Below the pieces are notes generated by a model that saw nothing but the letters and a program-made list of their open reading frames with translations, had not been told where the DNA came from and did no database searches. The translations under genes were made by a program, and so were the position numbers. From the NCBI GenBank assembly GCA_017506865.1, contig JAFCMP010000235.1:186001-250000 (forward strand): a DNA stretch of 64,000 nt, in the 5' to 3' direction. The stretch comes from Tribonema minus (taxonomy: Eukaryota; Sar; Xanthophyceae; Tribonematales; Tribonemataceae). This document shows, one piece after another, positions 3,535 through 63,912 of this stretch (position 1 is its first letter; each line of letters starts with the position of its first letter).

Positions 3535-5533
3535 TCACCTGCTGGCCTGCGTCACCGCGGCCTCCAGCAGGAAGTCGGCGACGGCGCCGTGGCCGCGCGC
3601 GAGCGCGACGCCCTGCGCCGTGTCGCCGTCCGCATTGTGCGTGCCGACGGCGGCGCCGTTGCGCACGAGCAGGGCGCACACCTGTAGAGTGATAGAAGGG
3701 GACAACACGGGGGGTTGGGGGGGGGGGGGGGGGGGGGTGAGGGGGCGGCAGAGGGCGGCCGGTCGGGGTGCCCAGCGGCAGCGCTTGAATGGCGTCGATG
3801 CTCTCTGGGAAGGGGGTTTACAGGGGGGTCGCATCTGGCACGGGCTCGAGTCGACGTGTGCTCGCAGTGCTGAATCTGTGCGGACTGAAGCGCGGCGTCC
3901 ACGCGCGAGCGGCAGTGCGCAACATCATCGATTGAGAGCCGCCGCTGCGCGTTTACTGCGGGGCGGTGCAGTGACGCGTCGCCGTCCGTACCATACAGCG
4001 GAGCGCTTTGACTACACGGTCCTTTCGCCGCAATGCCATCGCACACACACACTTGAAGAGCGCCCCTACGTCCCGTACATACTAGCCCACAGGCACAGTC
4101 GTGGCGCGCCGGCTCACCTCGAGCGCGCCCGCCGCGGCGGCGCGGTGCAGCGGCGTGTCGCCGTCAGGGCCCACGGCGTTGGCGCCCTCCGCGCGCGAGA
4201 TGCGCGCCAGGCAGCCGAGCGCTGCCATGACGTCGTTGGCCGCCGCCGCCTTCATGAGGCGCTCCACGGTGACGGCCTCGTCGCGCATGTTCTGTGTGGG
4301 GGAGGAGGGGGGAAGGGGGAGGGGGGGGGGGGTCACGTGACTGGCTGCATTGATGGGGTTAAGGTAGTGGATGTTCGGCGATAAGATTGGGGGGGGGGGG
4401 GGGGGGGGGGGGTCGGGGGTCAGGAGGTTTCACGTGACTGGCTGGAAATGATGGGGTCAAGGTAGTGGCCATTGTGCATATATAATTGTACCCTCACTAT
4501 AGAGTTGCTCGTCGCGCATGTTCTTGGGGGGAGGAGGAGGGTAGGGAGTGGAGGGGTCAGGAGGCCTTCAGTGGTTGGCTGGGAATGAGGAGGTCAAGGT
4601 AGTAGTGGATGTTTAGTCAAGCGATTTGAGCCATCTTTGTGCATCATGCTGGCAAAAACTTATTCTCCAACACGTGATCCATCGCGCAGCGTCGTAACAT
4701 GCAACAACATGTAACTACCAATGACTGCCTGGACTGTCATGGACGAATTGGGCTGAGCAGACATTCCATCGTGATGATAAAAAAGGCTCTTTTTTCTTCT
4801 TTGCTTGCTGGGAAAAACTTCTTTTTTGAAGTATGATGTCTGCCATTGCGCCCGTGTGCTGAGCCGTGCTGCCATAAGTGTGGCAGCGCTCACCTCGTCC
4901 ATCATCACGAACAGCGACTGGTTGTACTTGTCGTCGACGAAGCTCCTGCGCTGCCACTCCCCGGCATCCTCCTTGATCTTCTGCGGCTCGACCTGCGGGG
5001 GGAAGACGGTGAGTCGCCGTTGAGGTTGGGAACTTCAAACCTTCCAGAGAGGAGCAGAACTACACGTGCGCCACGCTGATCTCCCTTTTCAGTCAAGGAG
5101 CAGCAGTGCATCAACGCTGTGGCTCGGTAATGTAAAAATGACATGAGTCAAGACTTGCTAGACGTGCAGCTCGTGTGCTTGCCCGTCGGGCCCACTCTTA
5201 GCTCCCGCTGCTTCACAGTCACCCTCCGAGCGATACCGGAAAAGAACCGCTACCCGTACGGTGAACTCCAGTAAACACATCAACGAATTACTATTCCTAG
5301 CACTAGGGTTAAGGTATGCCCAGCAGCAGTGCTCAGGGGCGCTCATCTCAACGAATTACCGTTGCTACGCAGCCCTCGTACTAGGGTCGACGTGTGCCCA
5401 GCAGCAGTGCTCAGTCAGGCGCGCTCACCTCCTCCGCGTCCCCCTCCCACAGCGCGTTGCTCTTGGCGTTGCCGACTGCGAGGGCCAGGAACACGTCGCC
5501 GTCATCCAGGTCGGGGCTCGACAGCGGCTTGGT
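3535..5533 (-). other. Gene 1 segment: end of ArfGAP domain and ankyrin repeats (exons 14-17)
   Basis: Exon 14 has AVGNAKSNALWE, the conserved G-N-x-x-x-N-x-x-W-E of ArfGAP domains. Exon 15 has FVDDKYNQSLFV, the F-x-x-x-K-Y signature. Exon 16 has a helix, then DGDTPLHRAAAAGALE, an ankyrin repeat start. Exon 17 continues VCALLVRNGAAVGTHNADGD and closes a second repeat with HGAVADFLLEA. The exon 16/17 join restores an uninterrupted ankyrin pattern. About two repeats are visible, as expected for a short ACAP-type ankyrin block. Confidence 0.85.
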
Positions 5534-8500
5534 CTGTGCGAAGAAGCAAGCAATACGGCTGGGGTCAGTGGTACGTATGCAGCATGGAGTGAGTTTGAGT
5601 TGTAGTATCTCGCTGCCATGGGCGCACCGTGACACGTTCACCGCTGCACCATCTGTCTGATGACGCACTAGCCCTGTGTGGCTCGACCGCGGCTTGGTCT
5701 GCGCAGAAAGCGAGCGTTGGGGCAAGGACACGGGCAGCACCCTGGGATGGATTGATTGGAGCCCATGAATTGATTGGAGCCCCACTTACACCCCCCCCCC
5801 CCCCTCCCTCTTCTACTGGGACAGAGCTGATTCCAGGCCAACTGGCCCCCCCTCTCCTGCTGCAACAGTACCGTGCCGGCTTCACCACAGCTGCGGAATT
5901 CCATTGATCTCGCTGGTGCGAGACCTGCTGCGCCTGAAACGAGACGTGTGCGCCAGTTGCGTGCACCCCACACACGACGGCCAAGCATGCGGACCGACGG
6001 GGTGGGGGGGTAGACCCACAGTAGGGTTAGGGTAACGGTTAGGATAAGGATAAGGGCGCACCTGGCTGACGCCGGAGGCCGTGTGCGCCATGCCGCACGC
6101 GCGGCACAGCAGCACGCCCAGGCCGACGCTCACGTGCGTCGTCGGCACGGCAGCGCAGTCGGCGCACGCGCGGTTCTGCGCGAGGGGAAGGGGGAGGGGG
6201 GGGGGGTAGAGTCAGGGTCAGGGGCAGCCAGCAGCATAGCTCAGCAATGGTTAGGACGCAGCGCACGCGCACGGCTCAGCGATGACGACATCGCCCCGCA
6301 CGTGTCACTGCCGCCCGCCAGGCGGTGCACGAGAATGGTGGACGAGCGTCGCGGGTTTTTCCTCTCACCGGCGCCTCAGCGCCCCCAGGCACGCCCGCCG
6401 TCAACAGGCCCACCGGTGCGCGGCGTACGGCGTACTCTTCATCCATCCACGATCACGGCAATAGAAAGTGCACATCATCAACACCTATGTAGGCTCTCAA
6501 AGCAGACAATCATTGCTATGAGGCGCCGTCCCTGGCGTGGGGTTAGGGTTAGGTCTAACCCTAACCCTAGCTCAGCGCTACACTACGCACCTCCTTCTGC
6601 AGGCACGAGACAGTGTCGAACAGCGACTCGGCGCTGCCGCCGCCGCCCGCGGCGCTGCACGCGCGGACGACGCGAGAGAGTCGACGGTGGCGTCATCATA
6701 GTCCTCGACGGCACATCAAAGCCCTTGTGTACATACGCTACAACGTTTGCTAAGAGGCAACTGCATCAGTGCCACTGCGCACCTCCTTCTGCAGGCGCGA
6801 GACGGTGTCGAACAGCGACTCGCCACCGCCGCCGCCGCCGCCGCCGCCCGTGGCGCTGCCCGCCGCGGACGACGCGAGCGAATCAACGGTGGCGTCATCG
6901 TAGTCCTCAACGGCGGCGCGCGCGACGGTGCCGCTCGACTTGGAGCTGGCGGCGCTCGCGGCGCCGGGGCTCTTGTCGCCGCCGTCGTCGTTGGCCGGGT
7001 TGGCGCCGGGCGCAAGGGCGGCGGCGGCGGCGTCGCTGTTGCTCTTGAACCTGCGGTGAGGGGGAGGGGGGGGGGGGGAGGGGGGAGTCGGAGAGGGATT
7101 TAGATTCCGATGTCAGCGGCGTATTATTCGGGTTGCGCCTCGGAGACGGGTGACAGGGGGGGGGGCGGCCAGAGTCAGAGGGTCAGAGTCAGAGTCTAAG
7201 CTGGACGCAGAGAGAGGGCACGCTGGCGGCACCGTCATCGTTCTCTGGCAAGCCCGGGCGCGCTGGGGCGCGCGCGTCGCTGCACACGGATCGCGGACGG
7301 GAGCAAAACTCGAGTCAAAGTCAGAGTCAAGGCGGGACAGTGTTTTGATTTGTGACGAGCCTAGTTGCGCAGCAGCGCTCGGTGCCATATGCCGACAGTC
7401 ATCGTGTGCGTGCACGCGGCGGACACACAAGAGACGCAGCGGCTGACCCTCACTGTAACCCTACCCCTACTGATTTTCCCTAACCTAACCCGACTTTTAA
7501 ACCTAACGGTGACCTAGCCCAACTGAAGCATCGCCCCTGAGCTGAAGGAACGCCCCCTGCGCGTACGCGCGAGCGTACCTGGCCTTGTACGGCGATACGT
7601 TGTTGACGAGCGGGGCGACGGCGGGCGCGCTGAGCGCCGCCTCACCCTAACTCTAGCCCTAGACAACGCGTCGATCAGCAACGCATGGGAACTGCTACCC
7701 CATGTAGCTCTGAATGAAACCTCACTTCGCAACGCAAAAAAACTGCCCCCTCCTCGCGCACGCGTACCTGGCCTTGCACGGCGACACATCATTGACAAGG
7801 GGCGCGACGGCGGGCGCGCTGAGCGCTGCCTAACCCTAACCCTACCCCTATTTCACCCTAATGCTGACCTATTTCCACCCGTAACCTAGCCCTAAACGAC
7901 CCAGCAACTGCGCGCGCGCACCTGGCCTTGTAGGGCGACACGTCGTTGACAAGGGGGGCGACGGCGGGCGCGCTGAGCGCCGGCGCGCGCGTCGGCGCCG
8001 CGCCCTGCGGCGACTGCACGCCGCCGTCCGTCTGCGGCGTCGTCGTCACGGTCGGCGCTGTCGCCGGCAGCGTGACCATGTCCAGCGGCATCTGCGCCGC
8101 GGGCGCGCTCTTGCGGAAGAAGGAGGCACGCGACACCTGGGGGGTGGAGGGGGGGGGGGGGGGGGGGGGGGGGGAGGGGGGTCAGGTCGTAGTGGGGGAG
8201 GGAGGGGGAGGCGGTTGCCGGTGGGCCGCACAGGGGGGGGGGGGGGGGGGGGGGGGCAGGCACAGGGATCGCATGTGGGGGGGGCAAAACCAAAAATTCA
8301 AAGCATGAATGGCGCTTGAGCAGTCTGACGTACCATCTGGGCTTTTTCGCGCCGTCAACAAGTTCTAAAATGATAAGCATGAACGGCACTCAAAAGTCTG
8401 AGCCGTGCCATCACGCGCACCTTCTGCGGCTTGGGCGGCGACGGCGCGTTCTCCATCGGCGGCGGCACGCAGTCCGGAGGCGGCAGCGCGGGGCTCGAGT

Positions 8501-10782
8501 AGTCCGTCTCATTGGGGCTCGGGGGGACCTGCGGAGAAGGGGGTGCGTCAAGTAGGGTTGGTATTAGGGTGTGGGCAGGGGCAGCACGGCGCAACCTAAC
8601 CCTAACCACTGAGCGTTGTGCATTTGTGGCAGCGCGGGGCTCGAGTAGTCCATCTCATTGGGGCTCGGGGGGGCCAGCGGAGATGGGTTAGGTAGGGTTG
8701 GTTAAGGTTAGGGTTAGGATCGGCAGGGTCTAGGCAGGGGCGGCACGGCTCGACCACTGAGCGCTGTGCCTGTGCGGCAGCGCGGGGCTCAAAGAGTCCG
8801 TCTCATTGGGGCTCAGGGGGATCTGCGGGGCGGAAACGAGGCGTTAGGGTTAGGGTTAGGGTAGGGTTGGGGCTAGCTTTTGGGTCACGCGAAACAGGGG
8901 CAGCGCAGCTCAGCCGCCAGTGCTGTGTATGCAGCCGAGTAGTGCTGTCGCACCGTGCGTCGCGTGCCTCGTTCATTCTGCGCGTGCGCATGCTGTGTGG
9001 CGGCGCCAGGCGCTGAGCACTGATGCGCGCCGCAGCGCTCAGCAGCAGCGCTGCTTGTGCGCGCCTTTGACTGAACAAGTCCCGTCGGCACCTCTTCCGA
9101 AACGCCTTGCCGCCTGCACGACATGGTGACATGCCGCCGCCTGCTGCGGCGCGCGCGCGCACGCTCTTTGTCTCGGGCGCGGCACGTCAACCTCAAGTCC
9201 AATGCACAACTTCAAGTGTTGCCACCACCCCTGGAATGCCTCCCACCACATGGTACAGGACGCGCCCTCCGTCTGCAGTGGCATGTCAACTCCAAGTTGA
9301 ACACCCAACTTCAAGTGTTCCACTCTTCAACCCCCTCACCTGCGAGCGCTGGAACGCCTCGCACCACATGGCGAACTCGTACGGGCCCTCCGTCTGCAGC
9401 GCGATGGTCTTGCGGTCGTACGTGGTGAGGTCGATGCGGTAGCGCCGCTTCTCGGCGTCGCGCACGTTCGTGTGCAGCGCGAGCGCGCCCAGGCCCACGG
9501 GGCTCAGCAGGATGCGCGTCCCGGGCGCAATGCCTGGTGCGCAAGCGAAGCGCAAAGAGGGATAGATTAGGGTTAGATTAGGGTGAGGGTGCAGCGCGAG
9601 CGCGCCCAGGCCCACGGGGCTCAGCAGGATGCGCATCCCGGGCGCATTGCCTGCATGACACACGCATGAAGCGCGAAGAGGGTTATATATGACAGGGGTG
9701 ATGATCAGGGCTCGCGAGGCTGACGCGAGCGGGTTCGAGCGATGCGCCGCGTGTTGAGGTGCAAACGAGCGTGAGCTAGGGTTCAGCGAAGGATTGGTTT
9801 GAGTCAGCTGATGGTGCTAACCCTAATCCTTATTACTGACCCGCCACCATTGTTCCCGCCTACGCCCGACCAGTAGTATGGGCCGCTGCGCATGAGCTAG
9901 GGCTCATGGTTAGGGTTGCGTTGGCTGATGATGCTCAACCTGAACCAATTGCGATGACCCGGGACCCACCTTCCGCGCCCACGCCCGACAAGTAGTACAG
10001 TCCGCTGCGCGTGAGCTAGGGTTTAGGGTGGAGTTAGCTGATGCTCAAGCTGAACCGATTGCAACCACCCGAGACCTACCTTCCTTGCCCACGCCCGACC
10101 AGCACTACAGGCCGCTGTGCGTGCGTTAGGGTTCAAGGTTAGGGTTGGGGTTAGCTGATGATGCTCAACCTGAAGCCCTTGCAATGACCCGGGACCCACC
10201 TTCCTCGCCCACGCCTGACCAGTAATACAGTCCGCTGAGCGTGAGCCAAGGTTTAGGGTTGGACTCGGGTTAGCACCATCTTGTTGCTGAACGAGGTAGG
10301 GTTAGCTGATTGTGCTAACCCTAACCCTAGTTGCTGACCCGGTACCCACCTTCCTCGCCCACGCCCGACCAGTAGTACAGTCCGCTGCGCGTGAGCTCGA
10401 ACCAGCGCCGCACCCACTTCCGCCCGAAGCGGCTCTTGGTGTTGGTCCCGCGCACGCGGTACATGTAGCCCGCGCGGATGCAGTCGGACGCCGTGTTGAG
10501 CGTGCCAAACTCGGGGACCATGTCGCGCCACGCGCGCACGCACTCCGCCTGTGGGGGGGTTGGGGGGGGGCCATGCGGGGGTGTGTTGAGGGGGCGGTGG
10601 GGTGCTGTGCAGGGGGGGGGAGGGGGGGGGCATGCGTCGTGTTGAGGGTCAAGGGGGGGGGGGGTGCAGTGAGGGGGGGCTTTGATGGTGACACGGCATC
10701 AAGACAGTCGCCAATCTGCGGGCATGCCAGACGCAGCACAGCGAGAGCGCGCGCGCTACGCATGCGCGCACCTCCGCGCTCT

Positions 10783-10819
<37 letters not shown>

Positions 10820-11103
10820 GCAGCAGCGGCAGCAGCAGCAGCGCTGCGCTTTCACGGGGAAACGCGGACTCAAGACGGCTACCTACATGCGTGCCAGACG
10901 CAGCACAACGAGAGCGTGCGCGTGCTACACACATTTGCGCAGCACACTCGCGCAGCAGCAGCAGCGGCAGCGGCGGCGGCAGCGCCGCGCCGCGCGCGCA
11001 CCTGCGAGAAGCACGCCGCGCTTCAACTACGACACAGCATCGAGACGACTACCTACAGGCTGCCGTCTAAGCCCTAAGTGTGCACAGAGAGCGTGGCGCA
11101 CAG

Positions 11104-11144
<41 letters not shown>

Positions 11145-14100
11145 CCGCCGCGCCGCGCGCGCACCTGCGAGAAGCACGCCGCGACCGTGGGGTTCTCCGG
11201 GCACGCGGGCGTCCCCGGCATGACGATGTGCGAGAACTTGGGGCTGATGCGGTTCACGATGAGCCTCTCGAGGTCGAGGCGCATGACCTCCGCGCAGTTG
11301 TGGCTGAGCGCGTCGTTGAGGCGCGAGCCGTGGCGCTTCCACGGCTCGCCGGCCAGGTACCACGCGTCCGCTTCGGCCTGAGGCAGGGGGCGGGGGGGCG
11401 GGGGGGTGTCAGGTCATGGGCGAGGGTGGCGGCGGTGCCGGGCGGTGGGGTTCAAAATAGATTAGGTCACTGAGCCGTGGCGCCGGCGAGGTTACCACGC
11501 GTCCGCTTCGGCCTGCGGTGTGGGGGGGGGAGGGGGGGGAAGAGATTAATGGTTTTGAGTTGAGCGTTGGCTATTAATCAACAAGCAATTGTGGCTCAGC
11601 GCGTCGTTGAGGCGCGCGCCGTGGCGCTTCCAAGGCTCGCCGGCCAGGTACCACGCATCCGCTTCGGCCTGAGGCAGGGAGAGGGGGGGCGGGGGGGTGT
11701 CAGGTCATGGGCGAGGGTGGCGGCGGTGCCGGGCGAAGGTGTTCAAAAATAGATCAGGTCACTGAGCCGTGGCGCTTCCATGGCTCGCCGGCGAGGTACC
11801 ACGCGTCCACTTCGGCCTGCGGTCGGTGAAGAATGGGGGGGGGGGGGGGGGGGAGGGTTAATGGTTTTAAGTTTTATTATGAACGAGCTTCGTAGTGTTC
11901 AGAAAGCGCCGTGGCGCTTCCACGGCTCGCCGGCAAGGTATCACGCGCCCGCTTCCATCTATGGGGGAGGGGGGGGGGGGGGGTTAACACCAATTGCGCT
12001 CTTGTGTGGCCCGCGGGGCACTTCCAGCAATGCTCAGCACCCGATGCACATGCGCGGTCGTTGGCGCGCACGCGTCTGCGCACTTGGTAATATGCTTGTA
12101 GCATTGTTCAGTAGTGCTAAGCATACATCAAGACCATGAGCCGTGGAATCGCACCTCAAAGGTCGGCTCATCGCGTCCTGGGCTGGTATCAGAAACGGAC
12201 ATCCACAGCAGCACGTATTTGCCAACCGCTGTTGCTCAGCCTCAAAAAAGGAGTACTTCAACAAGTCCTCGAAAGTACCTGTTACACTTCAAGAAGTGCT
12301 TGAGAAGGTGGCCGACTTATCAGCCGTAGGCCAGCACACCAGGGTATGAATGAGGTACGCATGGTAGGAAGGTGTATAGGCACGAACGCGCGCATACATA
12401 CTGCGCTTGCGCCGCCGCCGCGCACAACCCCAGGGTATGCATGAGGTTATGCATGGTAGGTATGTATAAAAACCCAAGCGTGCATACATACCTTGGCCTT
12501 CTGTGCCGACTCCCACACAGGCACGCGAGCGTGCGCCGCTGCCGCACACACCTCCATGTGGTCCGTCAGGTGGTTGCCCAGCGCCAGCACCAGCTCCGAC
12601 AGCATTTGCGCCTGCGGAAGTTGAAGAAGACGGAAGTTGAGAGACGCTCCACTGCATGTAATCGGAGACAGAGTAGCAATTTCACCACCCGTCTTCAAAG
12701 GCTGGCAACAGCGGTACACATACTTGAAGAATGTCTTTTGGGGACTTGTTTGCGAGACGGGTTTCATGTGTGTCTGCACGTTGCACGTAGCGGTGCTGTC
12801 GGACGCGGCGATTCTGTGCGCTGAGCAGGACGTTGTGTTGTGCAGTTCATACGTGAGTTGACAGATGCGTACTGCTTCATTGCACAGCATGATCAAAGTA
12901 CGCAGGCGGTGCTGCGGGAGCAGATGGCAGTTAATGCCAATGGCATGCATTGACTGTTACGGCAGTTACACTTGCCAGTGGACCGACTACAATCCGTTCA
13001 CTTCTGGCACCACATGACGAGCGTCGGTCGTTTGGTGCATCGGTCAACTTGACGTTTCCCACTGGCGGTGTACAGCAACAGGCTAGGGCAAAGGTGCAGG
13101 CACTACTAGAGTTGGGTAGGGTTAGAGTATAGGGTTCAGTCGGGCACTCATGTGTGAAGACGGTGCCAACGCACTAGGGAGAGACAAGAGGTGGCCACTC
13201 ACGTGGTGTGTTGATGCACAGCCGAAGTACACTACTAGGGTTGCGCTCTCTCCTGCTAGGGCTAGGGTAGGTTAGGGTTTAGGGTTAGGGTTCGGTTGAG
13301 CTCTTACATGCTGCTGGTGCGCCATGTCCTCCTCCTTGAGCACACTGAATATTGCGCGCATGGCTTCCGCCTGTGCCGGGGGGGACACGCATGCAGGGGG
13401 AGGGGGAGGTGAGGACGCTGACTGGGGTGTACACCCGGCCGTTGATGAGTCATGTCAATGATGTCATGGCTCATCAGGTGAGCGGTCAGGGCAGCGCTCA
13501 ACGGGCCAGTGGTCGACGCGCTCAGCACAGTCACACGTCACTGCCCCGCACGTGAGCGGTCGCTCAACAGGACACGGGCCTGTTTTCAGGTCAAAATCAG
13601 GCAACGCTCCGCGCGACGGAGGTCAGCGCTCTGCGCAGCACTGCTCCGCCCTCAAATTGGCAACAAAACTACAGCGTGCGGTGCGGCAGCGCTCACCCGC
13701 CCGTTGATGAGGTGCTTGGCCGCCTCCGGCGCCTTGCTCTTACTCGCCTGCAGAAAGTCCACGAGCGTCCTGCGCGCGGAGCGGATTGGACAGATTGCGG
13801 AGCGTCGTCAGAGTTGAACCTGGGCAGCGACCGCGCTCAACCGTCATGCCTTTGAGGCGCCAGGATGGCACCGGGATGCGCGCACTGCAGTTGATTGCTC
13901 CCATGGTCCATGCGCGCACCGCAGTTGATTGCTTCCAGGGTCTACGCACGTTTCCTGGCGCTGTTGGACGCTGAGAAGCTGTGCGCGGATGGCCCCTGGT
14001 GCAAACCTAACCCTAACCCTAACCCTAACCCTAACCCTAACCCTAACCGACGGCTGCTCTACCGCTCTCACATCCTGTAGGCGGCGCGGTTGCACATCAC

Positions 14101-37088: not shown

Positions 37089-37121
<33 letters not shown>

Positions 37122-45500: not shown

Positions 45501-46400
45501 GCCAGGCACTTATGCACTGATGATCGCTGAGCTGTGTTGTTGCGGACGTTGGGCGTTAATCGGCAACAGCGGCAGCTGGCGCCGCAGCAGGGGGCGGGTT
45601 GAGGCGATGGTGATAGGCACCGCGAGTGGCCTTTCACATGCAGCTATGCGCGGCGCACTGCGTCCAACCCCCCCAGCGCGAGCGCGCATCGTAGGCGCGC
45701 TTACGCGTCACAGGCTTGTATTTCAGTTGTGCGGATTTCCGCCTAACTTGTGCGCACTGCTCACCTCTGACAGCGCCTCCGGGGACAGGAACACGCTGCA
45801 CACGGAGTTGGTGTACGCAGCGACGTCCTCCCTCAGCTCTGTCCCCCCGCCCTCCTCTTCGCTGAGGTGCACCACCATGACCAGTCTGCTGGCGAAGAAC
45901 GCCGCCGCAATGATTATCTTCTCCACGGAGCTGAGCCTCGTGCCTGAGCACTGCAGCAGCACGCCATCCGCCTCCGCCTCTTCCGCGCCGATGGACGACG
46001 GACCCTGCTTGAAGTCGCTAGGGCCTACAATGCAGCTGTGCGCAATGTGCACCTTGCAGCTGCGCTGCACTTCGGTCAGCAACTGATCATCGACATTGAT
46101 CAGTGTCAGCCGTGGCGGCCCTGAAGCACAGTCTTCGGCGGCTCCGGAGCGCTTAAGCGCGGCGAGCTGCTCTATTCTCTCCGGTTTGAGGTGCACTGGG
46201 CTTTTGAGTGTTGCGTCCAGCTGTTTGCTGATCTTCTCTCCCTGACTTCTGTAGTAGACGGCCATGGTTTGCTTGCGCTTCCCTTGTTTCTGCACTTTGT
46301 GCTCAGCTGTGGAGGTTGCAGGCTCCAAAGCCGGCGAGCAGGACGTGTCAACAGAGCTCGCGTCATGCTCCAGCGGTGAAGCCTCCTGTGCAAGGCTCAT
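42542..46400 (-). CDS. Gene 4: unrecognised Ala/Gly-rich protein, 5 exons, 558 aa
   Basis: Exons in transcription order: 46400-45765, 44822-44679, 44536-44507, 44089-43844, 43162-42542; all are phase 0. The start is the ATG at 46400 (MSLAQEASPLEHDASS). Residues 1-212 mix a polar N-terminus with a hydrophobic stretch (EKIIIAAAFFASRLVMVVHL). Exons 2-5 give helical, Ala-rich sequence (FVEQVALLRAVAADVAQRIA; QAAVVGTILAECSAGLASGG; LLGSVCVVTGAISAVTDYMT) that could be membrane-associated. The end is a Gly run, an acidic Ser/Glu stretch (SDTETEDESELEIDSEAE) and a Pro-rich tail. The 30-bp third exon (VNVGRMLAVK) is a tentative microexon. I do not recognise the family. Divergent with gene 5. Confidence 0.65.
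44265..44442 (-). repeat. Two decayed acceptor-side copies of gene 4 exon 4
   Basis: Copies of the exon 4 beginning (MALNFASIMRLVRRM) lie near 44265-44312 and 44400-44442; the first keeps a GCGCCAGGTCGTGGCGCTCC-like acceptor and start, and both are frameshifted. They lie upstream of the real exon at 44089. Confidence 0.7.
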
Positions 46401-46696
46401 GATGCAATCTTTGACTTGTGCCGACGATCACTTTTTAAAAAAGTAGACAGTCCGGTTTTCTCGACTGCTGCTTGCAATGAGGGAGCAGAGCTTGTGTGTA
46501 GCTGTGAAGGACCCCGCGCGTTAGGTCAAAGAACTCTCGGGAAACTTCTGTAACTGTCATAACTGTAATAACACACCCGGCAATGTTAGACGCAGCTGCA
46601 TAGCCGCGAAACGGGAGAACGATTTGCATCAAGTCCGGAGGCGCAGCAGTACTACCTTAAAGCAGATTAAGAGAACCGCTACATACTCAGTACGCG
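46401..46696. promoter_or_regulatory. Divergent promoter between genes 4 and 5
   Basis: A compact 296-bp interval between the ATG of gene 4 (minus) and the proposed ATG of gene 5 (plus). It is AT-richer than the genes and contains a TTTTTAAAAAA tract at about 46432-46442. It must carry both promoters if the gene 5 start is right. Confidence 0.5.
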
Positions 46697-52600: not shown

Positions 52601-53350
52601 AGAGGAGATGGCGCGGCAGCGCGGCCACATTTGCTTGCTCTGCCCAAGTATCCCATAGCTCTCACCCCCAATCCTAGCCCTAACTTTAACCCTATAGCCC
52701 TAACGCTGACTACACCAAAGTCCGCCTGCACCGGCAGGCCGAGCACAGCGGCCCGGAGTAGGCGGTACGGCAGCAGCGCGAGCACAATTGCCCGCCGAAC
52801 ACGTGCATCCCCTAACCCTGACCCACCCCAATGCTAGCCCCTCATCCTGACCCTAGCCCTACAACTCTTGCACCAAATTCCGCCTGCCGTACTGTAGGCA
52901 GAGCACAGCGGCCCAGAGGATGTGGCAGAGCAGCGCGAACATGACCGCCTGCTGGTTGCATTCCAAGTATTGTGTAACCTGAACCCCCCAACGCTCGCCC
53001 TAATTCCAGCCCTGACCTGCATCTCACCCGGCCTAATCTAGCCCCTCTTGTGCCAATTTTGCCAAACTTTGCCTGCCTGGCAGGCCGAGCACAGCGGCCC
53101 AGAGGAGGTGGCGCAGCAGCACGAGCACAACCGCCTGCTGAACCCATCTACCCCCCCACCCTGACCCAATGCTATCCCCTGACCCTAACTCTAGACCTGA
53201 CGCTCACTACACCGCACTCCGCCTGCCGTACTGTAGGCAGAGCACAGCGGCCCGGAGGAGGTGGCGCGGCAGCGCGAGCACAACCGCCTGCTCAAGCAGA
53301 GCCTGCAGCGCACCAACTACGCCATCGGGACGGATGCCGACTACATGTAG
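46697..53350 (+). CDS. Gene 5: axonemal-type tandem motif protein, 8 exons, 305 aa
   Basis: Exons: 46697-46822, 47163-47273, 47864-48089, 49558-49712, 50402-50455, 50998-51066, 51777-51839, 53237-53350; phases agree and the stop is TAG at 53348. A short motif recurs about six times: RTSIALGSAPTVYET, LTRTTFSLGDERVDYQ, MKRSNMYFGNAAPSYDT, LTRTNLNFGDEVPEYVS, LRRSHFKFGTDPVVWET, LQRTNYAIGTDADYM. The consensus R-[ST]-[NHTS]-x-x-x-G-[DTNS]-x-x-x-x-[YW] resembles motifs in many microtubule-associated axonemal proteins; this is inference. Exon 1 is proposed because its reading frame (KRFETTTRSGM) and phase fit; alternatively the ATG at 47181, in a strong GCCACCATGG context, is the start. Small and basic, as expected for a microtubule-lattice protein. 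Confidence 0.7.
48200..48245 (+). repeat. Donor-side copy of gene 5 exon 3 end
   Basis: Repeats the last codons of exon 3 (KRSNMYFG context) and the GGTGAGC donor with a small internal deletion. It lies about 150 bp after the real donor at 48090. Further diffuse repeats of the surrounding intron (GAGGAACCCCGCAAAGGG-type blocks) continue to about 48440. Confidence 0.75.
49330..49442 (+). repeat. Near-intact acceptor-side copy of gene 5 exon 4
   Basis: About 107 bp repeat the first 100 or so bases of exon 4 (GNAAPSYDTAAHEGMQAVGA) almost perfectly, with acceptor and open frame intact, but the copy then diverts into intron sequence with no nearby GT donor in place of HNRDLK. The real exon is 49558-49712. 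A donor-side copy of the exon end (VALTRTNFNFGDE plus GTGGGT) lies at about 49832-49890. Confidence 0.85.
52735..53145 (+). repeat. Three acceptor-side copies of gene 5 exon 8
   Basis: Copies of AEHSGPEEVARQREHNRLL lie at about 52735-52797 (one stop codon), 52897-52955 and 53080-53142, before the real exon at 53237. Spacing is about 155-185 bp and the last copy is the best preserved. Each is followed by CCTAACCCT-like strings. Confidence 0.88.
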
Positions 53351-55051: not shown

Positions 55052-58000
55052 TCATTCGCTGATGGTACCCCAACGCGAGTACTTGTCGCCGCCGTCCGCA
55101 GGGGGGGGTGCGGCACCGCTCCGCGCGCTGCCGCCTGCGCACGAGGGGCACAGGGGCACAGGCAATAAACGGCGTGACATTTAGCTGGCGTTGGGTAACG
55201 AAGCGGCATGCAAAACACGCCGTGCTCGTCACAGACCAGCACGAGTAGCTGATCAGCTGCTGCAGTAAAGAGCTAGTTAGCGCACAGGCTAGCATAGAAG
55301 ACTCTTGCGGCAGACGGCGATTGCGAGGGGTGTAGTGGCAGCAGCGAGTAGGCCGCATATGTCGCCGTCATAGGACTGATGAGCGCGCAAAGCGTACAGA
55401 TAAGTTTGGACGCGCTGCGTGAGTTGAAGTAGCGCGTTCAGTAGGTGCCAGTGCAATGCACACGCTGAGTTTTCAATGCCGCAACCGATGGTGCGCCACT
55501 CGCTGAATGTGTCTCGGTCCAAAATGGCCGCCGCCGCCATGCGTTGCCAGAGGCATAAAGCGTCCGCACTGCCGCCATCACGCTTGTAGGTTACCGGCAT
55601 GAATGGGCTGAAGGTGCTCTCTCAGCTGCGCACTCCTTTGACGTGACTCTGCTGGCCTATGAACTAGTGCTATGAACTGCGCATGCAGCCAGGGACAACA
55701 CTACACTGAGCGTCGCAATCGAATAGCTGCCAGTGGTACCTCCTTGCGAGGCGAAGAGCTAGCGAGACTTCACAATCTGCGCTGCAGACACCACCGCGCC
55801 CGATCCTCGGCAGCGAGCAGCGAGCAGCCAACGGACACCGTGACATCTGCAAATTGCAGTCCAGCGATCGCCGCATGACCACTATATATATACACATGTA
55901 CCCAAGGTAGTATACTTGCAATGTGCATGTGCAGGTGTGCGCGCGTGCTTGCGCTTCTTATGCAGGGGCAGCGCATGCAGCACACCGACGCGCGTCGTCA
56001 CAATGCAATTACGGTACTGACAAGTCACTCTCACTCCGAGTCGCACTCGCTCACCGTAGTCTGAGGCCGAGGTGGCGTATCTGTTGCTGTTGCCGTAGCT
56101 GCGCACGCCGCCGCCTGCACGAGGGGCGCCAAGACCGCGTGGGGCGAGGGTCAGCGTCAGCAGCATTGCTCAGCAGTGCTCACCCGAGCGCAAAGTGGCA
56201 CGTCACAGCCTCATTTGCACAACAATCAGCAGCCCGGCGTGAACTTACTTTTATTTGGCGCGAGTCAGCGGTGACAGCGGCGATGCACGACCCCTTGCTG
56301 CTGAGCTGCAATGCTAAACCTGCAGTCACACTCGGCGCCAGCTTGCCTATGTACGCGGCCCTGCCGTGTGTGCGCTGCTCGGTGTGACGTTGCACGTGTA
56401 GCTCGGCGGCAGCAAGGCGTTACAGCGGTGACAAACGGCCCTCGCTGCTACATAAGCCTTCAACAATACCCCTAGATTTGGACTCGCCGTCAGCCTGCCT
56501 ACGTATGCGGCCCGACCATGCGCGTGCGCTGCTCACCAGTGATTTTGCTCGCCGCGACGTTGTAGATGGCGCTTGGCGGCGGCGATGCGATGCGCAATGT
56601 CGCATGGCGCTTTGCTTACAAGCTGCAGCGCTGAATCTGCTTCTAGTACATATATACACTACTAAAATACTTATATATATACTTCGAAGTATATGATATA
56701 GACTCGGCGCCAACCCGCCTAAATAAGCAGCCCGACACTGTCTGTGCGGCTCACTGGTGGCGTTGCTCGCCGTGGCATTGTAGATGGCGCTCGGCGGCGG
56801 CGACGCGCTGCGCGACGCCGCAGCAGCATGGCCACCACCGTACGCTACATACACCTTCAACGCTGACCCTAAATTCTGACTTGGCGCCAGCGTGCCTAAA
56901 TAAGCAGCGCGACACTGTCTGAGCGGCTCACCGGTGGCGTTGCTCGCCGTGGCGTTGTAGATGGCGCTCGGTGGCGGCGATGCGCTGCGCGAGGCCGCAG
57001 CAGCATGGCCGCCACCGTACGAGTACTGGCTGAGCCTCGCCCTAGTGCGCCGCTTCTCGCGGATCCCCTCCGCAATCTTGTTGCCCAGCTCCTCCAGGGG
57101 GCGCTTGTCCTGGGGGAACCGGGGGGGGGAGGGGGGGGGGGGGGGGGGGGGCAGTGAGGCAGAGGAATGACGCTGCACGCGGTTTTGGTGCTCTCCAGGG
57201 GGCACTTGTCCTGGGGAATGTGGGGGATGGGGGGGGGGCAGTGAGGCAGAGGAGCTGCACGCGGTCATAACGCTGGCAGTAGATCACGCACTCCGAATGT
57301 TGCGCTTCACTTTGAAGTGAATTTGGCGCGGACACTGCTGCCATCATCTGAAGTCAGTCGCGCTGATGTGCAGCTGCAACGAGCTGGGAGCAGCACCTAT
57401 GGCGCGGAGCCGTGATGCGTTGAGCCCCGCGCCGCTGCTTAGGGTTAGGGTTAGGCAGGGACAGGTGAAACGAGCATGCACAAAGACACCCACAAAGGTA
57501 ACTACGGAGAGAACTCAGACAAAGAGTGCCCGCTCTACGCCTGGTGCCGCGAAGCCGCACCTGATACGCAAACTTGGCGACGATCGCGGGTCCGTAGTCC
57601 ATCTGCTCCTCCATGGTGAAGTGCCACAGGTAGCCGTAGTCCTTGTAGTACTTGCGCTTGAGCGGCGTCAGCGTGTGGCTGTGCCTGATCTCGATGCGCT
57701 TCTTGATGCACGTGCCCTTGGGGTGGTAGATGTAGTCCTCGCGGCTGCGGTACAGCAGAAGGAGGTCCGCGAGCTCAAAGATGAAGTACGTGGGCTTCCA
57801 CGCCTGCGCGGGGAGGGGGAGGGGGGGGGGAGCGGGGGCACAAGCAGGGGGCCGGTGGGGGGGGGGGGGGGGGGGGGGTGGAGGAGGATACACTGTCACA
57901 GGCGCAGCTGCTGAGTGCTGATATATTGAAGTGACAGGCTTCGGGCAGTCATCCTCGCACTGCGCGCGCGTGTGCGCACGCCAGCGCTGGCAGTTCAGAG

Positions 58001-61000
58001 TTGGACTTCAAGTTGCTCGTCTTGCACGGCGGCGCCGGATGTGCGAAGGTGTACTGGCGTGGCTTCATCGCGCACACACCTTCGAACTTGAAGTGAAGTG
58101 AGCGCCGGCCCGCCCACAAAACCAAAAGGCTCCGGAGTGAGGCATGATGCCGCAGGCTACGTGCCGTCTACAGCACTTGTGAGCGCCAGCGCCAGCGCCA
58201 GCGGATGCGGCGTCAGCAGCTCCTGTTCACCCGTTCAGCTTAATAAACCTCGTGATGCACAATTAATACCGTGAAGTACGTCATCTGTCAAATGCGGCGC
58301 ACCTTGACCAGCAGGGTCCTCTTGCTGATGCGCGCGAGGCACTCGCCGTCGGGCTTGTCCGCGCCGGCTGCGCGCTGAGGCGACGCGCTGCAGTTACAAG
58401 TAGTAAGAATACAGACACGGCTTGTTAGTGCCACTTACGCACTGATCATTGCAATGCGGGATGTCCGCAAGAGTTGGGATAGCTCGGAAGCAAAGTGGGT
58501 TGTACATCGGTGAATCGCAGGGGCGAGTACAGACACGGCTTGTCAGTGCCTCTTGGGTGATTGCATTCCGCGACGTTGGGATGGTTTGGGAGCGATGTGA
58601 GTTGTACACAAGTGGATCGCGAGCGAGCGGTACATGTACATGTGGATATTCATATGGATGCATACTTGGTAAACAGTACTTGAACATTACATGTGTGTAC
58701 ACGCTGACACGCGCACCGCGTTGCGTCCGTGAACAGAAGCAGAACACGATGCTGGGTGCGCATGCTTTCGCAGCGCAGGCGCTCTTTAACAAAGGTCCGA
58801 AGTAGAGCAGGCAACGAGCATGTGACAGTGCAACGATGATCAGCACCCGTTCTGCAGAATTGCCGAGCGATGCTCTGCTGAGCATACAGAAACTTGATGA
58901 TGATGCAGCAATCCTTACGTGTGGGGTGAGACCTACAGAGGGTTGGGCCCTTGAAGTGCTGAGCACTGCCGTGGCGCAGAGGTCCCACACAGCGCAGGCA
59001 ACAAGCATGCGGCGACGAAACACTGATGAACACCGATTCTGCGAAAATCGCCAAGCAATGCTCTGCCAAGCGAAAACCTGATGGTGATGCAGTAATCCTT
59101 AGGTGGGGGTCAGGACTACATAGGGTTGGGCCCCTGAACTGCTGAGCGAGTAACGCTCTGCCTAGCATACGAAAGCTTGATGATGATGCAGCGACACTTA
59201 GATGTAGGGTAAGGGTTACAAAGCATTAGGGTAGTGGACTGCTGAGCACTGACCTGGCGCCAAGGTCCCACACGGAGCAGGCGACGGGCATGCGGCGACG
59301 CAACACTTGTGAGCACCGATTCTGCAGAAATTGCCAAGCAATGCTGCCGAGCATACGGAAACTTGATGGCGTTGCGGCGATCCTTAGGTGTAGGGTTAGG
59401 GCTACATTGGGTCGGGCCCCTGCACTGCCTAGCGAGCCAATTGAATGCTCTGCAGAGCATACAAAAGCTTGATGATGAATGATGCAGCGGTTCTCAGATG
59501 TAGAGTTGAAGTTACACAGTACTACTAGTAGGGTACTGGGCTGCTGAGCATTGACCTGGCGCAAAGGTCCCGCACAGAGCAGGCAGCGGGCATGCGGTGA
59601 CGCGACACTGACGAGCACCAGCTCTGTGACTTTGCGGAGCACGTGAAGACCTGGTGACGATGCAGCAGCGGTTCTTAGGCGCAGGGTCAGAGTTCCCTAC
59701 AAGAAAGTAGAATGAATAAATGCTAATTAAGGTACTGGACTGCTGAGCACTGACCTGGCGGTGGTGCGCCCCGCGGCGCGCGCCTCCTCTTCCTGAAGCG
59801 GCAGGCGTACAAGCAGGCACAGGAGCAGCACGGCACGGTACGCAGCAATTGAGGGGGCTGGGTGATCGATTGGCGAGCATAGCCAGGCGCGCGAGCCAGG
59901 CGTGTGAGGGGGCGTCGCTGCAGCTGAAGTGATCCCTTGTTGGGATCTGAGAGTTGGTGCTCAGCCCCACAGACTGGAGGCGCCCCCTGGACGTCACCAC
60001 GGGCGGACACCAGCCAGTTGTATACGCGTGAGCCGTCTTGCTGAGCAATCAGCAACCGCACCCGCATTTTCCCCCTCGTTTCAGGTGACACAAGTCGTAT
60101 TGCCAGCTGCTGGCGTACCTCCGCGCATGTATGCGCCAGCGGCGGGCAGAGCAGTAACCCTAACCCCAACCCTAACCCTAACTTAAATCCTACCCTAACT
60201 TGAAGCACCCTGCACTCGCCCTGCGCAGCCTGATGGCGAGCTCCACGGTCGCTCTCCAGCTGGCGGCGGCACGCGTGTAGCCCCTTGGACGCCCAAGTAC
60301 GCTCGTGCTTCACAGTACATCTTGCTCTTAAGCGCCACTTACGCAGAACAAGCCCATGTTCGAGTACAAGGCAGCGGCGAGAGTAGTCACGCTGTCGCTC
60401 ATCGGTCTCGCCTTCTGCCGCTTGACGCGGTTGCTCTCCAGCTGAAGGCCGCGCTGGCGGTGTCAGATGCACCACGTCAGCTCGTAGCTCAAGTACTTCA
60501 CACCAGCGGCAAGAGTAGTCAGGCGGCAGCAGTAAAAACTGACCTTCTCCAACTTGACAGCAAGCTCGTGGTCGCTCTCCAGCTGGCGAACGCGTTGAGC
60601 GCTGCCGCCACTGCCGCCGCCGCCGCTGCCGTCACACGCACTACGCCAACTCGCAGCTTAAGCACACAGCAGCGGCGAGAGCAGCAGAAACTCACCTTCT
60701 GCAGCTTCATGGCAAGCTCGTGGTCGCTCTCCAGCTGGCGGCCGCGCTGAGCGCCACCGCCGCCGCCGCCGCCGCCGCCGCTGGGACGCGCAGGACTCGC
60801 GCCGGGGCTGCGGCTTGCGGTAGTCTCGCTGACGCTCGCACTGGCGTCATCGTCATCGGACCAGTCCGCCTGCCAAAGAATGTGAACAGCGGCAACCACG
60901 GTCATTGGTGGAAGGCCTTCAACCTGACGGCTGACCACACCTTGCAGCCTTGAGCTGTACGATCCTTTAATTCGTTTTCGTGAACAAGTGGGTATGCGCG

Positions 61001-62698
61001 GCATGATTGCGGTGCGACTCGTACAGAAGAGCGATGGTTGTCACTTCAAGAGGGGTGCTGATGAACGCGGCGCAGCGCGAGGCCGCGGGCGGCGACGCGC
61101 CGTTCACGCCTCGTCGTATGCTTACTCAAAGCGGTTAATTGACAGTCCGCCTGAGAAGTGGTAAAACGAACGTGACGTTTGCGGATCTGCAATCGGTCCA
61201 CAGCTGCACTTGAAGTAGGCTGAGAGTAGAAGAAGGCCAAGAGTCACCTGGCGTGCGTCAGGGTATCATTTTCTGCAGACGTTTCCTAGGATTCCCTTGG
61301 AAGTTCTGGCACGTTATTGCGTGTTCTGGCGCGCCCAAGTAGACACAAAGTGGGGTGTGCGACTTCAACTTGAAGTTACCTCGTCGTCCGAGGTGGGGCT
61401 CTTGGGGGCCCCTGCTGCGCCCCCCTTGGATGTCTCCTTCTGGTCCCCCCAGATGTCCGCGTCCGTCAGGTCGCCCCAGCCAGCCTGCGGCATTGCTCGG
61501 TTTTGGGGCAGCAGCGGTCTTGTAAGAAGCCACAGTGTGGACATTGTCTTATACATTCTTCTTGAAAAGCATAATAAAATCAACCAATCAATCAAGTGCC
61601 AGATAGCTCCTCTCAAGCCTGCACTGACAATGTATGCACTGACAATGTAAAGAATGAAAGATATATGTGAAGTATGAGTACAGGAAAGCCCCCCCTTTTC
61701 ACCTCTCGAGGGTGGGGGCGAGGGACCGCAATACGCACATGATAGTTTCAGCCTCAGTAACAGCCGGCCCGTAGCTCTTATCACATCCACAGAGTGGCAG
61801 CTTTGTTTTACACTCTGGCAGTGCAAAGATGGGCATGCACAAGACCAGCCAGTTACTCAGTGCACAGTTGCTGCGCAAGTGAAGGATGTTGCGCAAGTGA
61901 AGGGTGTGATGGCATCGCACTGATGACAGTCAAAGTTCAAGTATGTCATCAAAGCTCAAGTGTGGCGCACCTGTTGGGCGGGCGCCGGCGCTGCCGCAGG
62001 CGCCGCACTGAAAGGGTCCCAGGCGCCCCCGTTGACGGCTGCCTGCACACATGGGACACGAACGAGTTCGACCAAACAACTAAGCGGTCAGCAAGTGATG
62101 GAGCGCCAGCTCTAGACAGTGCTTACAATGCTGCTGCGGGTGGCGTGGTGTTGCAGGGTACTTGGGGGAGCATGGCGTACCGAAGGGGGCGATGACATGA
62201 TCAGCCAGGGGTAGTGCACCGGCTGCAGGAGGCGTCGCCGACATCTTGTGGGAAAGAACGACACAGCGGCGCAACGAACGTGGGAGCCACTGTCAGGGCC
62301 GCTGGGCGGCGGGCATCCGAAACGATGGCGGCGCCGGCGGCTATGCCCGCCACGCGCGGACAGATTCCTTCGTGCACTTCCACGCAAACTACATACGTCT
62401 CAACGCGGTGAGCATCATTCCAAAGGTCCTGCCATCCCCATGCTCGAGGGCATCTTCAATGCGCCAGACGGCGCTTGTCGCCGCACGCACTCACGCAATC
62501 ACAACACACACGATCGCCCAGCACCCGCACGCGCTCACGCAATCACAACACACACGATCGCTCAGCACCCGCACCTGCTGCTGCTGCTGCTGCGGCGGCG
62601 CCGCCGCGGCGCCCGCGAACGGGTCCCACGCGCCCTGCGGCGCAACCGGCGCCAGCGCGTGCGGCGCCGGCGGCAGCGGCGCAACGCCGAACCCCATG

Positions 62699-62731
<33 letters not shown>

Positions 62732-63912
62732 GGCAGCGGCGGCGCGTCAAAGGGGTTGGCGGCGGCGGCGAGGCTCAGGCCGCCCATGCCCGCGGTGAGG
62801 GGACCCATGGCGGTCGCGTAGGGGTGCATGAGGGGCGCGGCGCCCAGCGTCGCGAAGGGCTGCTGCATGCCCCCCATCTGTGGCATGCCCCCCATCTGCG
62901 AGCGGAGAGGACGGGAAGGGGCGGAACGGCGGCAAAGTTGGTGAGGCGTGGCATCAGCTGGTGCGGACGCGCGCGCCGCGAGCGGCGGCAGCGGGCACTG
63001 GGTGTGAACGCGTTGCATGTGCCTGCATGTGCCGGGGGGCAGGTACCAGCACATCTACATGCACAGGGGGGGGCATGGGCATAGTTCACAGTTTGCACGG
63101 CGCAACCCTTCCGAAACGCACTGCGACCACTGCCCATCAAAGCGCGCCATCGCGCAGCCTCCACCTGACCGACGCTGGCCGTTAACAAGTACTGAACACC
63201 ATATCACCAGTTTGTGGCTGAACCCTATCCGAAACCCTGAAAGGCAGATGGCATTCGCAATGCGCGTCCAAGCACTGCGCATGTGACTGTTGGGTTAGGG
63301 TTAGGTTAGGGTTAGGTGACTTGCTGCATCGACGCTGCCTTCGCCAGTTGGCATTGTGGACGCCTCCTCAACTTCAGCTTCAACGTCAACATCGCATTTC
63401 CCCTTCGTGGCCTGCACGCGGTGATGTCATGCATTGTACAGCCATGCTCATCCCACGCGACACACAACAAGTAGCACAGACCGATTGTTCATGTCACTGC
63501 AGGCGGGCCGCGCAAGAGAGGCCGCGTAAGTGCCGGCTCCGGTTTGACTCATGTGAAAGACGCCGTTACGTTCTGACCGCACGTGACAAGGCCGGCCACG
63601 CTACCAAGAGCACAGAGTCGAAGCTTCACAGAACACAGAACACACTTCAAGATACAAACACGCCACTCCGGTCTGACTGCGCGTGAGAAGTTCCAAAAGC
63701 ACAGAGTTAAAGCCTCACATACACGAAGTATATTGAAGTACCAGATCTCAAGAAGCATGTTGAACGCTAGTTGGTCGTGCACGTGTGCCGTTGTACGCTC
63801 ACCATCTGCATGGGGATGCCGGTAGCATACATACCCCCCGCCAACATGGGCGCGGCCGCCATCGGCGGCGGCTGCATGGGCGCTGAGAAGGGGTCCGTCG
63901 GCTGAGCCGCGG
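55052..63912 (-). CDS. Gene 6 (partial): DPF/NPF adaptor-type protein with PH domain, N-terminus outside window
   Basis: Exons seen, in transcription order: 63912-63803, 62895-62575, 62042-61971, 61484-61380, 60869-60696, 59792-59755, 58387-58303, 57803-57561, 57109-56932, 56114-56055, 55134-55052 (stop TGA at 55054). Phases agree throughout; the first exon starts in phase 1, so upstream exons lie beyond 64000. Order: Pro/Met/Gln-rich region with endocytic motifs, an acidic Trp segment, a Gly run, the helix LESDHELAMKLQKEEEA, a PH domain, and a Ser/Gly-rich tail (GGVRSYGNSNRYATSASDYG). At least 488 residues. It is likely a membrane-recruited clathrin/EH-network adaptor; the missing N-terminus would decide whether it is an ENTH/ANTH protein. 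Confidence 0.78.
56530..56835 (-). repeat. Donor-side copies of gene 6 exon 9 3' end
   Basis: Copies of YGGGHAAAASRSASPPPSAI, then YNATASNAT plus GTGAGC, lie at about 56745-56835 (almost intact) and 56530-56605 (decayed), after the real exon 57109-56932. Spacing is about 185-215 bp. Each unit also carries a GGCGCCA..TGCCTAAATAAGCAGC-like intron block. Confidence 0.85.
57561..58387 (-). other. Gene 6 segment: PH-like domain
   Basis: Exons 7 and 8 join to give GECLARISKRTLLVKAWKPT, then YFIFELADLLLLYRSREDY, then HPKGTCIKKRIEI and GYLWHFTMEE. This follows the PH pattern of a first strand, W-K-x-x-Y-F-x-x-x-x-x-x-L-x-x-Y, a basic loop, and further strands; the closing helix would be ELGNKIAEGI in exon 9. 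Family-level assignment only; lipid preference is not predictable. Confidence 0.7.
58790..59700. repeat. Diverged tandem family inside gene 6 intron
   Basis: Units of very roughly 200-300 bp share blocks resembling GGTCCCACACAGAGCAGGC, GCATGCGGCGACGCAACACT, CCGATTCTGCAGAAATTGCC and ACTTGATGATGATGCAGC, near 58795, 58975, 59255 and 59560. They lie in the intron between exons 6 and 7 and keep no coding frame. They probably began as a tandem duplication; no exon is included, unlike the other arrays. Confidence 0.65.
60220..60615 (-). repeat. Donor-side copies of gene 6 exon 5 3' end
   Basis: Copies of RQLESDHELAMKLQK plus donor lie at about 60538-60615 (reads RQLESDHELAVKLEK), 60425-60470 and 60222-60268, after the real donor at 60695. 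The nearest copy is the best preserved. Confidence 0.85.
61380..63912 (-). other. Gene 6 segment: DPF and NPF motif tail
   Basis: Three DPF motifs (PTDPFSAP, AWDPFAGA, AWDPFSAA) and one NPF (AAAANPFDAPP) lie in a disordered Pro/Ala/Met/Gln background with a ten-residue Gln run coded by CAG repeats. DPF binds the AP-2 appendage and NPF binds EH domains in epsin- and AP180-type proteins. AGWGDLTDADIWGD adds two acidic Trp motifs. Together they argue for a clathrin-coat or endosomal adaptor tail. Confidence 0.75.
62488..62578. repeat. 44-bp tandem duplication of gene 6 exon 2 donor region
   Basis: Two units begin near 62491 and 62535 and share CACGCAATCACAACACACAC and GATCGC.CAGCACCCGCAC. On the coding strand each unit starts with GTGCGGGTGCTG, the donor used by exon 2 (end 62575), so the donor itself is duplicated. 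Confidence 0.8.

Follow-up and report, generated by a model that had tools for sequence, protein, structure and literature searches.

Copies of exon edges that span splice junctions in the introns of the yellow-green alga Tribonema minus

How an intron can be lengthened safely is a long-standing question, often answered by transposons. The question arises again in the genome of Tribonema minus, a yellow-green alga (xanthophyte), where introns hold copies of the edges of their own exons. The region analyzed here, referred to as the window, is a stretch of 64,000 nucleotides, at positions 186001-250000 of contig JAFCMP010000235.1 (C235), chosen for its richness in copies and compared with the T. 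minus assembly (158 Mb, 554 contigs). The original prediction, made from the letters of the window alone, had described these copies as tandem duplications across splice junctions, which lengthen introns and leave the messenger RNA (mRNA) unchanged. Are the copies real, are they used, and what produced them?

Exon-edge copies and their decay

To define the splice junctions, 29 exons, one of them ambiguous, were delimited manually by their splice sites and reading frame, and a small hidden Markov model (HMM) gene finder was trained on these exons, the window and three further stretches (L051-L053); it recovered 22 of the 29 hand-set exons exactly. The curated set comprises 56 exons with 98 splice junctions in seven gene models, namely arf, kin, C, D, E, fap and F. 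Across joined exons, Pfam domains were found in arf (ArfGap, PH and ankyrin, Ank_2), kin (protein kinase) and D (Bestrophin-like). Thus, in these genes the copies attached to the exon bodies are the coding ones. Pfam gave no match for fap, for the scanned parts of C and E, or for the two scanned exons of F.

Each junction was represented by a probe with at most 45 bases of exon and 15 of intron, which was compared with the adjoining intron at a score threshold of 44. The probes detected 43 junction-spanning copies at 27 of the 98 junctions, 25 of them on the donor and 18 on the acceptor side, whereas 294 scans of shuffled introns yielded none. All seven gene models are represented (arf 14, kin 9, C 7, D 6, fap 4, F 2, E 1), although the single copy in E is weak (score 48). 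These results confirm that junction-spanning copies of exon edges lie in the introns, of which about 40 had been counted by eye. By BLAST self-comparison, every gene but E has such families, 26 in all, at as many junctions. By side, 15 of 49 donors and 14 of 49 acceptors have copies. The intron-side location of the copies is partly by design, as the probes were run against the adjoining intron alone and BLAST within 2 kb of the junction.

Gene territory contains 35 repeat families: 26 span exactly one junction and none spans two, seven are confined to introns, and two are exon edges lying in introns without a junction. That none of the 26 holds both junctions of an exon compares with a random expectation of 1.0 in 35 (P=0.06), a result that is weak by itself. 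The exonic share of the unit does not exceed 0.69 of what is possible (Kolmogorov-Smirnov P=0.006), perhaps because long decoys are recognized as exons and then selected against. The unit period, considered for a link with nucleosome size, is widely spread, with a median of 147 by one count and 167.5 by another, and is divisible by 3 in 8 of the 26 families. Introns with copies are longer than those without (median 811 bp, n=23, vs 539 bp, n=26; P=0.013), in agreement with the proposed lengthening of introns.

The pattern recurs elsewhere in the genome. We scanned five further 10 kb stretches (L051-L055, of which L054 adjoins the window) and 30 kinase loci, many of which have few introns, and found ten junction families in seven loci (one each in L052, L053, L004, L016 and L025, two in L054, three in L015); all but those in L054 are on other contigs, and their assignment rests on HMM exons and, in L015 and L016, on our choice of the decoy exon. 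Two further families are intron-only (L022, L025). Seven of the 19 outside families were dropped, as coding tetratricopeptide (TPR) repeats in L055 and as off-gene or doubtful in L052 (a second family), L003, L007, L008, L020 and L029. The window is richer in junction families than these loci. Together with the seven gene models, they bear out the expectation that the process would recur across unrelated genes.

In the junction-spanning pairs, the exonic parts have diverged by 0.080 and the intronic parts by 0.151, with the intronic part more diverged in 35 of 40 (45 pairs, of which five are too short on one side). The same holds for the window alone (0.074 and 0.136, intronic higher in 22 of 26) and for the other loci alone (0.092 and 0.183, 13 of 14). 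Selection on the exon's own copy, with drift in all the others, would be expected to give just such a ratio of about 1:2. Indels are found at 10 per kb in the exonic and 48 per kb in the intronic parts, and 12 of the 16 exonic indels are not a multiple of 3; that is, the decoys lose frame and the attached copy keeps it, as had been claimed. The further claim, that copies decay with distance from the exon, holds only roughly, since at junctions 10350 and 11378 the farther copy is the most similar one.

The splice sites within the copies are a different matter. A GT or AG core is kept in 38 of the 43 decoys, where a hand calculation for neutral decay, (1-0.08) squared, predicts 36. Decoy donors score 4.8 where true donors score 6.1, and decoy acceptors 5.8 where true acceptors score 7.2; a GT or AG picked at random in an intron scores about 0. 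The decoys are therefore strong sites that are not visibly purged; the original prediction had likewise spoken of decoy splice sites. In summary, a large number of the units that survive lie across a single exon-intron junction. Of the two copies, the one joined to the exon body is intact, whereas the intronic one has diverged as neutral decay would predict and has lost frame, though it has a good splice site. That the copies are silent in the mRNA, with only the spare exon copy decaying, is well supported by the divergence ratio, the frame loss, the period counts, the lack of two-junction families and, as described below, related proteins.

These data are probably best explained by repeated local tandem duplication straddling junctions, after which the spare copy decays silently in a lengthened intron; we hold this account with good, though not full, confidence. 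The T. minus genome would undergo repeated local tandem duplication, in units of mostly 90-230 bp. Where a unit straddles a junction, the attached site would stay in use, so that the mRNA remains the same and the intron grows by one unit. Duplications within an exon, or of a whole exon, would change the protein and be removed by selection, and the visible record would thus consist of junction-spanning and intron-only units. With less confidence, the units may arise by fill-in and rejoining of staggered breaks or nicks, sometimes with telomere-like filler, a step that the rest of the explanation does not require. A one-way ratchet, of which the original prediction had spoken, is only a possibility; losses can be counted only against the genome of a relative.

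Placement of the units and telomere-like DNA

Are the junctions merely where duplications survive and are seen, or does mutation itself favor exon-intron borders, for example through breaks in exons or through border chromatin? The latter we regard as possible, if on balance unlikely. Random placement of units in gene territory predicts 8.4 junction-spanning to 23.5 intron-only units. Visibility was assessed in a simulation that ran decay forward and detected copies by BLAST as above; junction copies were 1.5 times as visible and 36% of detected families were expected to span a junction, given an age range, indel rate and periods that we set. Against this expectation, 26 of 33 families span one (P=7e-7; with a flat twofold visibility instead, P=1.6e-5). 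At the other loci, 10 of 12 families do so (P=0.001), or 10 of 19 if all seven dropped families are counted against. The probability of a copy is also highest at the junction itself, 0.295 at offset 0; it drops to 0.056 on the exon side (75 bp from the junction) and to 0.083 on the intron side (45 bp from it).

Other tests speak less clearly for such hot spots. When exons were masked, so that only intronic similarity counted, 10 of 23 families touch an exon edge vs 6.3 expected (P=0.07), or 10 of 25 vs 7.0 with a looser cut-off (P=0.13); at an identity of at least 85%, 4 of 12 do so vs 3.8. Seven of the non-touching families are, by our reading, decoy-to-decoy copies. When pairs were shifted within three genes, junction-spanning pairs numbered 14 of 25, 9 of 18 and 5 of 12 (9.6, 5.7 and 3.2 expected), and distinct junctions 7, 6 and 4 (9.8, 5.6 and 3.3 expected), without clear excess. 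Shifts of whole families gave 26 vs 16.4 (P=0.0015), but for distinct junctions 26 vs 20.6 (P=0.09). The copy probability, moreover, does not simply fall away from the junction: it is 0.08-0.13 at +30 to +90 bp, climbs again to 0.18-0.21 at +120, +150 and +300 bp, and lies at 0.11-0.21 across 60-300 bp. The intron lengths in the null are already inflated by copies, and the rich window was picked as such. The placement tests, from unit placement through simulated visibility to exon masking, thus differ in strength. The prediction that junction-spanning repeats are commoner than random placement would allow is upheld by unit placement, but the exon-masked test and the distinct junctions lend it little. 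We conclude that the accumulation of copies at junctions is real, and that a mutational preference for junctions is not proven.

A related proposal is that telomerase-linked repair produced the duplications, a break being patched with TTAGGG-like DNA and its staggered ends filled in; the result would be a flanking duplication that carries telomere filler. Many contig ends are matched by a TTAGGG-like stretch of the window, which suggests that the telomeres are of the TTAGGG type. Past the exonic end of a copy, telomere hexamers cover 0.174 of the next 60 bp vs 0.040 in introns (38 non-independent ends). Taking one joint per family, 8 of 26 are telomere-like vs 6.5% of 60-mers in copy-free introns (P=2e-4), and telomere-like hexamers are present in 18 of 23 copy-bearing introns vs 10 of 26 others. 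Such joints hint at break repair, and there is a precedent in the horse, where telomeric repeats with direct duplications are ascribed to staggered breaks (PMC7215372). Nevertheless, relative to the rest of the same introns the signal at joints falls to P=0.07, 18 of the 26 joints are below threshold, no link is seen per junction (Fisher p 0.20 and 0.43), and repeated copying multiplies one original array. We therefore find a telomerase origin doubtful. The same must be said of a bolder combination, in which exon-intron borders would be genuine hot spots for the repair of staggered breaks, telomerase sometimes supplying filler, with one intron unit and one decoy site added per event. If this were true, introns would have a means of growth that is directional and tolerated by splicing, and that loads them with strong but ignored splice sites.

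Some features of intron sequence are recorded here in their own right. Telomere-like hexamers make up 4.1% of introns and 0% of exons in three hand-annotated genes and 1.1% of the remaining window, with examples at window positions 23865-24110, 10247-10330 and 14006-14048. Of 49 acceptors, 20 have a run of at least eight C or G in the 80 bp of intron next to them, compared with 1 of 49 donors; G or C runs near junctions showed no association with copies. A palindromic motif like ACTTCAAGTTGAAGT recurs in introns (window 9280-9319, 20284-20314, 20414-20484 and about 23527-23540), also at some copy joints, and no link between it and junction copies was found.

Use of the copies as exons, and features of the window

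The copies might instead be alternative or duplicated exons in use, or an intron might have been gained with the outer copy as an exon. The potato RNA-dependent RNA polymerase (RdRp) gene, in the account of it in PMC4974935, shows that a boundary-crossing duplication can make a new intron. In the window, the HMM takes some copies as exons (23934-23996, 24120-24182, 26605-26667), and the decoy scores come near those of the true sites. In addition, the annotated fap protein, P0001 (JKP88DRAFT_245436), carries an added segment within a copy-bearing intron. This protein has 44 extra residues (window 47810-48363) in two inserts that are absent from three related proteins; one insert derives from the copy-bearing intron, one stretch lies within a copy family, and the extra residues are apparently intronic sequence taken into the annotation. 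The loss of frame, a divergence ratio that is that of neutral decay, the lack of any family with both junctions of an exon, and the three related proteins without the insert all argue against exon use, which we consider improbable. Duplication of whole exons, as in mutually exclusive exons, was rejected on the same two-junction count and on the limited exonic share. An artefact of assembly or annotation is extremely improbable, for although some exon edges are predicted rather than observed, the copies differ from the exon by about 8%, carry indels and lie on several contigs, whereas misassembly or repeated reads would give near-identical copies.

Several points nonetheless weigh against silent duplication as a complete account. 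The joined models retain stops, five in arf (in its first exons, one being the terminal stop) and two in F, and two internal edges of the curated set, 13753 and 29370, have no AG or GT; a few exon edges are therefore uncertain, and the model of F, given its two remaining stops, is incomplete. Exon use is deduced from frame, Pfam domains and related proteins, and no copy-free site was seen in this single genome. The youngest family, at junction 27206, is too young for a decay signal, and its copies could be spliced. Telomere-like joints are not general. Finally, the frequency varies: no family was seen in L051 despite its 13 predicted exons, and the repeats of L055 are all coding.

The features of the window are collected in Table 1. 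Outside the genes, tandem repeats with periods of 330 and 246 bp lie at the start of the window (positions 140-2004); their copies are nearly identical (96-99% matches) and may represent a young satellite or what is left of a mobile element. A search with the kinase protein, in which 8000 candidates were scored, had no hit at E<=1e-20. Two contigs among the kinase hits, C90 and C179, were considered as alleles and rejected: their aligned blocks are 91-97% identical with six indels of at least 12 bases, and a 10 kb piece holds nine open reading frames (ORFs) of at least 150 amino acids. These blocks (L041-L050; C90:794001-844000, C179:182001-232000) are duplicated, 91-97% identical over their alignable parts with few indels, and have a GC content of 52%; the nine ORFs are in L041, and two of four ORFs scanned match Pfam (Helicase_C and fn3). 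The blocks are possibly a virus-like or segmental insert. A second T. minus ArfGAP-PH-ankyrin protein (P0005; 45% identity over 38% of the query) allows introns to be compared between paralogues.

Table 1. Gene models of the window and the exon-edge copies in their introns (window coordinates)
Feature	Position	Strand	Remarks
Gene arf, ArfGAP + PH + ankyrin	3535..16282	-	14 probe copies at junctions 4292, 6783, 7922, 8529, 10350, 11165, 11378; 9534 by BLAST only
arf: acceptor-type copy of exon 4118-4291	4508..4535	-	Score 44, at threshold
arf: donor-type copy of exon 6783-7050	6581..6712	-	122 exonic bases aligned, 3 frame-breaking indels
arf: two donor-type copies of exon 7922-8136	7566..7850	-	CCCTAA-like DNA joins exonic end
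arf: two acceptor-type copies of exon 8421-8528	8628..8828	-	Probe
arf: acceptor-type copy of exon 9340-9533	9589..9688	-	BLAST only
arf: four donor-type copies of PH exon 10350-10548	9837..10246	-	TTAGGG-like DNA joins exonic end
arf: donor-type copy of exon 11165-11377	10987..11020	-	Probe
arf: acceptor-type copies of exon 11165-11377	11481..11987	-	Three by probe, four in repeat family
Gene kin, protein kinase-like, 9 exons	17512..25132	+	9 probe copies, 6 junctions
kin: donor-type copy of exon 20093-20229	20315..20461	+	Probe and BLAST pairs
kin: acceptor-type copy of exon 21918-22012	21765..21850	+	Probe score 44, at threshold
kin: donor-type copies of exon 21918-22012	22068..22222	+	Two by BLAST, one by probe
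kin: acceptor-type copy of exon 23711-23830	23452..23504	+	Probe and BLAST pairs
kin: three donor-type copies of exon 23711-23830	23925..24320	+	TTAGGG-like DNA precedes each, weakly for the last
kin: two acceptor-type copies of exon 24984-25132	24603..24865	+	Probe and BLAST pairs
Gene C	25680..30538	+	Copies at 26013, 27206, 28616 and beside 27369; edge 29370 without GT
C: two donor-type copies of exon 25680-26012	26173..26421	+	Probe and BLAST pairs
C: three acceptor-type copies of exon 27206-27368	26594..27084	+	Youngest family, intronic divergence 0.02
C: copies of 3' edge of exon 27206-27368 beside donor	27527..27950	+	Donor spanned by 3 to 7 bases
C: two donor-type copies of exon 28329-28615	28716..28964	+	Probe and BLAST pairs
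Gene D, Bestrophin-like	34727..39579	-	6 probe copies: 35558, 36085, 36990 (two), 37944, 38097
Gene E	42805..46401	-	One weak acceptor-type copy, 44267-44312, of junction 44090
Gene fap, annotated JKP88DRAFT_245436, relatives in Phaeothamnion and Choristocarpus	47181..53350	+	Copies at 48090, 49558, 49713, 53237
fap: donor-type copy of exon 47864-48089	48198..48246	+	Probe and BLAST pairs
fap: acceptor-type copy of exon 49558-49712	49318..49435	+	92% identity
fap: donor-type copy of exon 49558-49712	49830..49905	+	Probe and BLAST pairs
fap: acceptor-type copies of last exon 53237-53350	52589..53142	+	Repeat family; one probe-scored, 52883-52941
Gene F	56932..62895	-	Copies at 57110 (BLAST only) and 60696 (two by probe)

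Relation to known duplications and significance

A close relative of the Tribonema pattern is internal gene duplication, a named class (Gao and Lynch 2009, as cited in PMC3443670 and PMC4974935) in which exonic and/or intronic segments are duplicated locally within a gene, and which in those citations is discussed with stress on new or multiplied introns. The 26 junction families, direct copies at an offset of less than 2 kb within the gene, belong to this class; unlike the cases as cited, they apparently leave the mRNA unchanged, and it is the length of the intron and the number of decoys that grow. The pattern is thus a recurrent, junction-spanning, apparently mRNA-silent and intron-lengthening variety of internal gene duplication. 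A single tandem duplication that crosses an intron-exon boundary is described for the potato RdRp gene in PMC4974935; its duplicate comprises the 3' portion of an intron together with the 5' portion of the exon that follows. The Tribonema units likewise cross such a boundary. They differ from this one intron-creating case in that there are tens of them, on donor and acceptor sides, which apparently are silent and lengthen an existing intron; the frame loss and the related proteins argue against use of the copies in a new intron of the potato type.

In the case of Hellsten et al. 2011, as described in PMC3443670 and PMC4974935, tandem duplication of an exonic unit makes a new intron. Tandem duplication and repeated splice signals are common to both, but the Tribonema unit includes an existing junction. 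Intron gain by tandem genomic duplication (the AGGT model, in which copies of an exonic unit bound the new intron) was accordingly rejected, with 26 of the 35 families containing an existing junction, seven intron-only and two being exon edges in introns. At the horse loci of PMC7215372, telomeric repeats are inserted at double-strand breaks and direct duplications occur at a few loci; telomere-like DNA thus lies beside a direct duplication in both systems, whereas in Tribonema the duplication is the main feature and telomere-like DNA is found at a minority of joints. Introners, in the description of them in PMC9860276, are dispersed copies of one element in many introns genome-wide. Many introns are affected here too, but the units tested appear confined to one gene each: of 677 matches to an 8 kb query, which took in parts of two genes and several families, about 150 were listed, and all of these were to the query itself or to one TTAGGG-like stretch. 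An introner or other transposable element was rejected on this lack of dispersed homologues among the matches listed.

The original prediction knew of no named description. A named class does exist, with one boundary-crossing case in potato; a recurrent junction-spanning duplication that lengthens introns was not found described, in Tribonema or as a process in general, in the open-license literature, a search with narrow terms that leaves subscription papers outside and is weak evidence of absence. The apparent novelty is therefore the recurrence of such duplication as an mRNA-silent process of intron lengthening.

If local tandem duplication across junctions is indeed the cause, the copies are a datable record of another route by which introns lengthen, each with a built-in clock, as its exonic part decays on one side and its intronic part on both. 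They may also mislead gene models, as in the annotation of P0001. Lastly, each event adds a near-consensus donor or acceptor a few hundred bases from the real site, and the window would thus provide tens of natural tests of how the spliceosome chooses between two almost equal sites.

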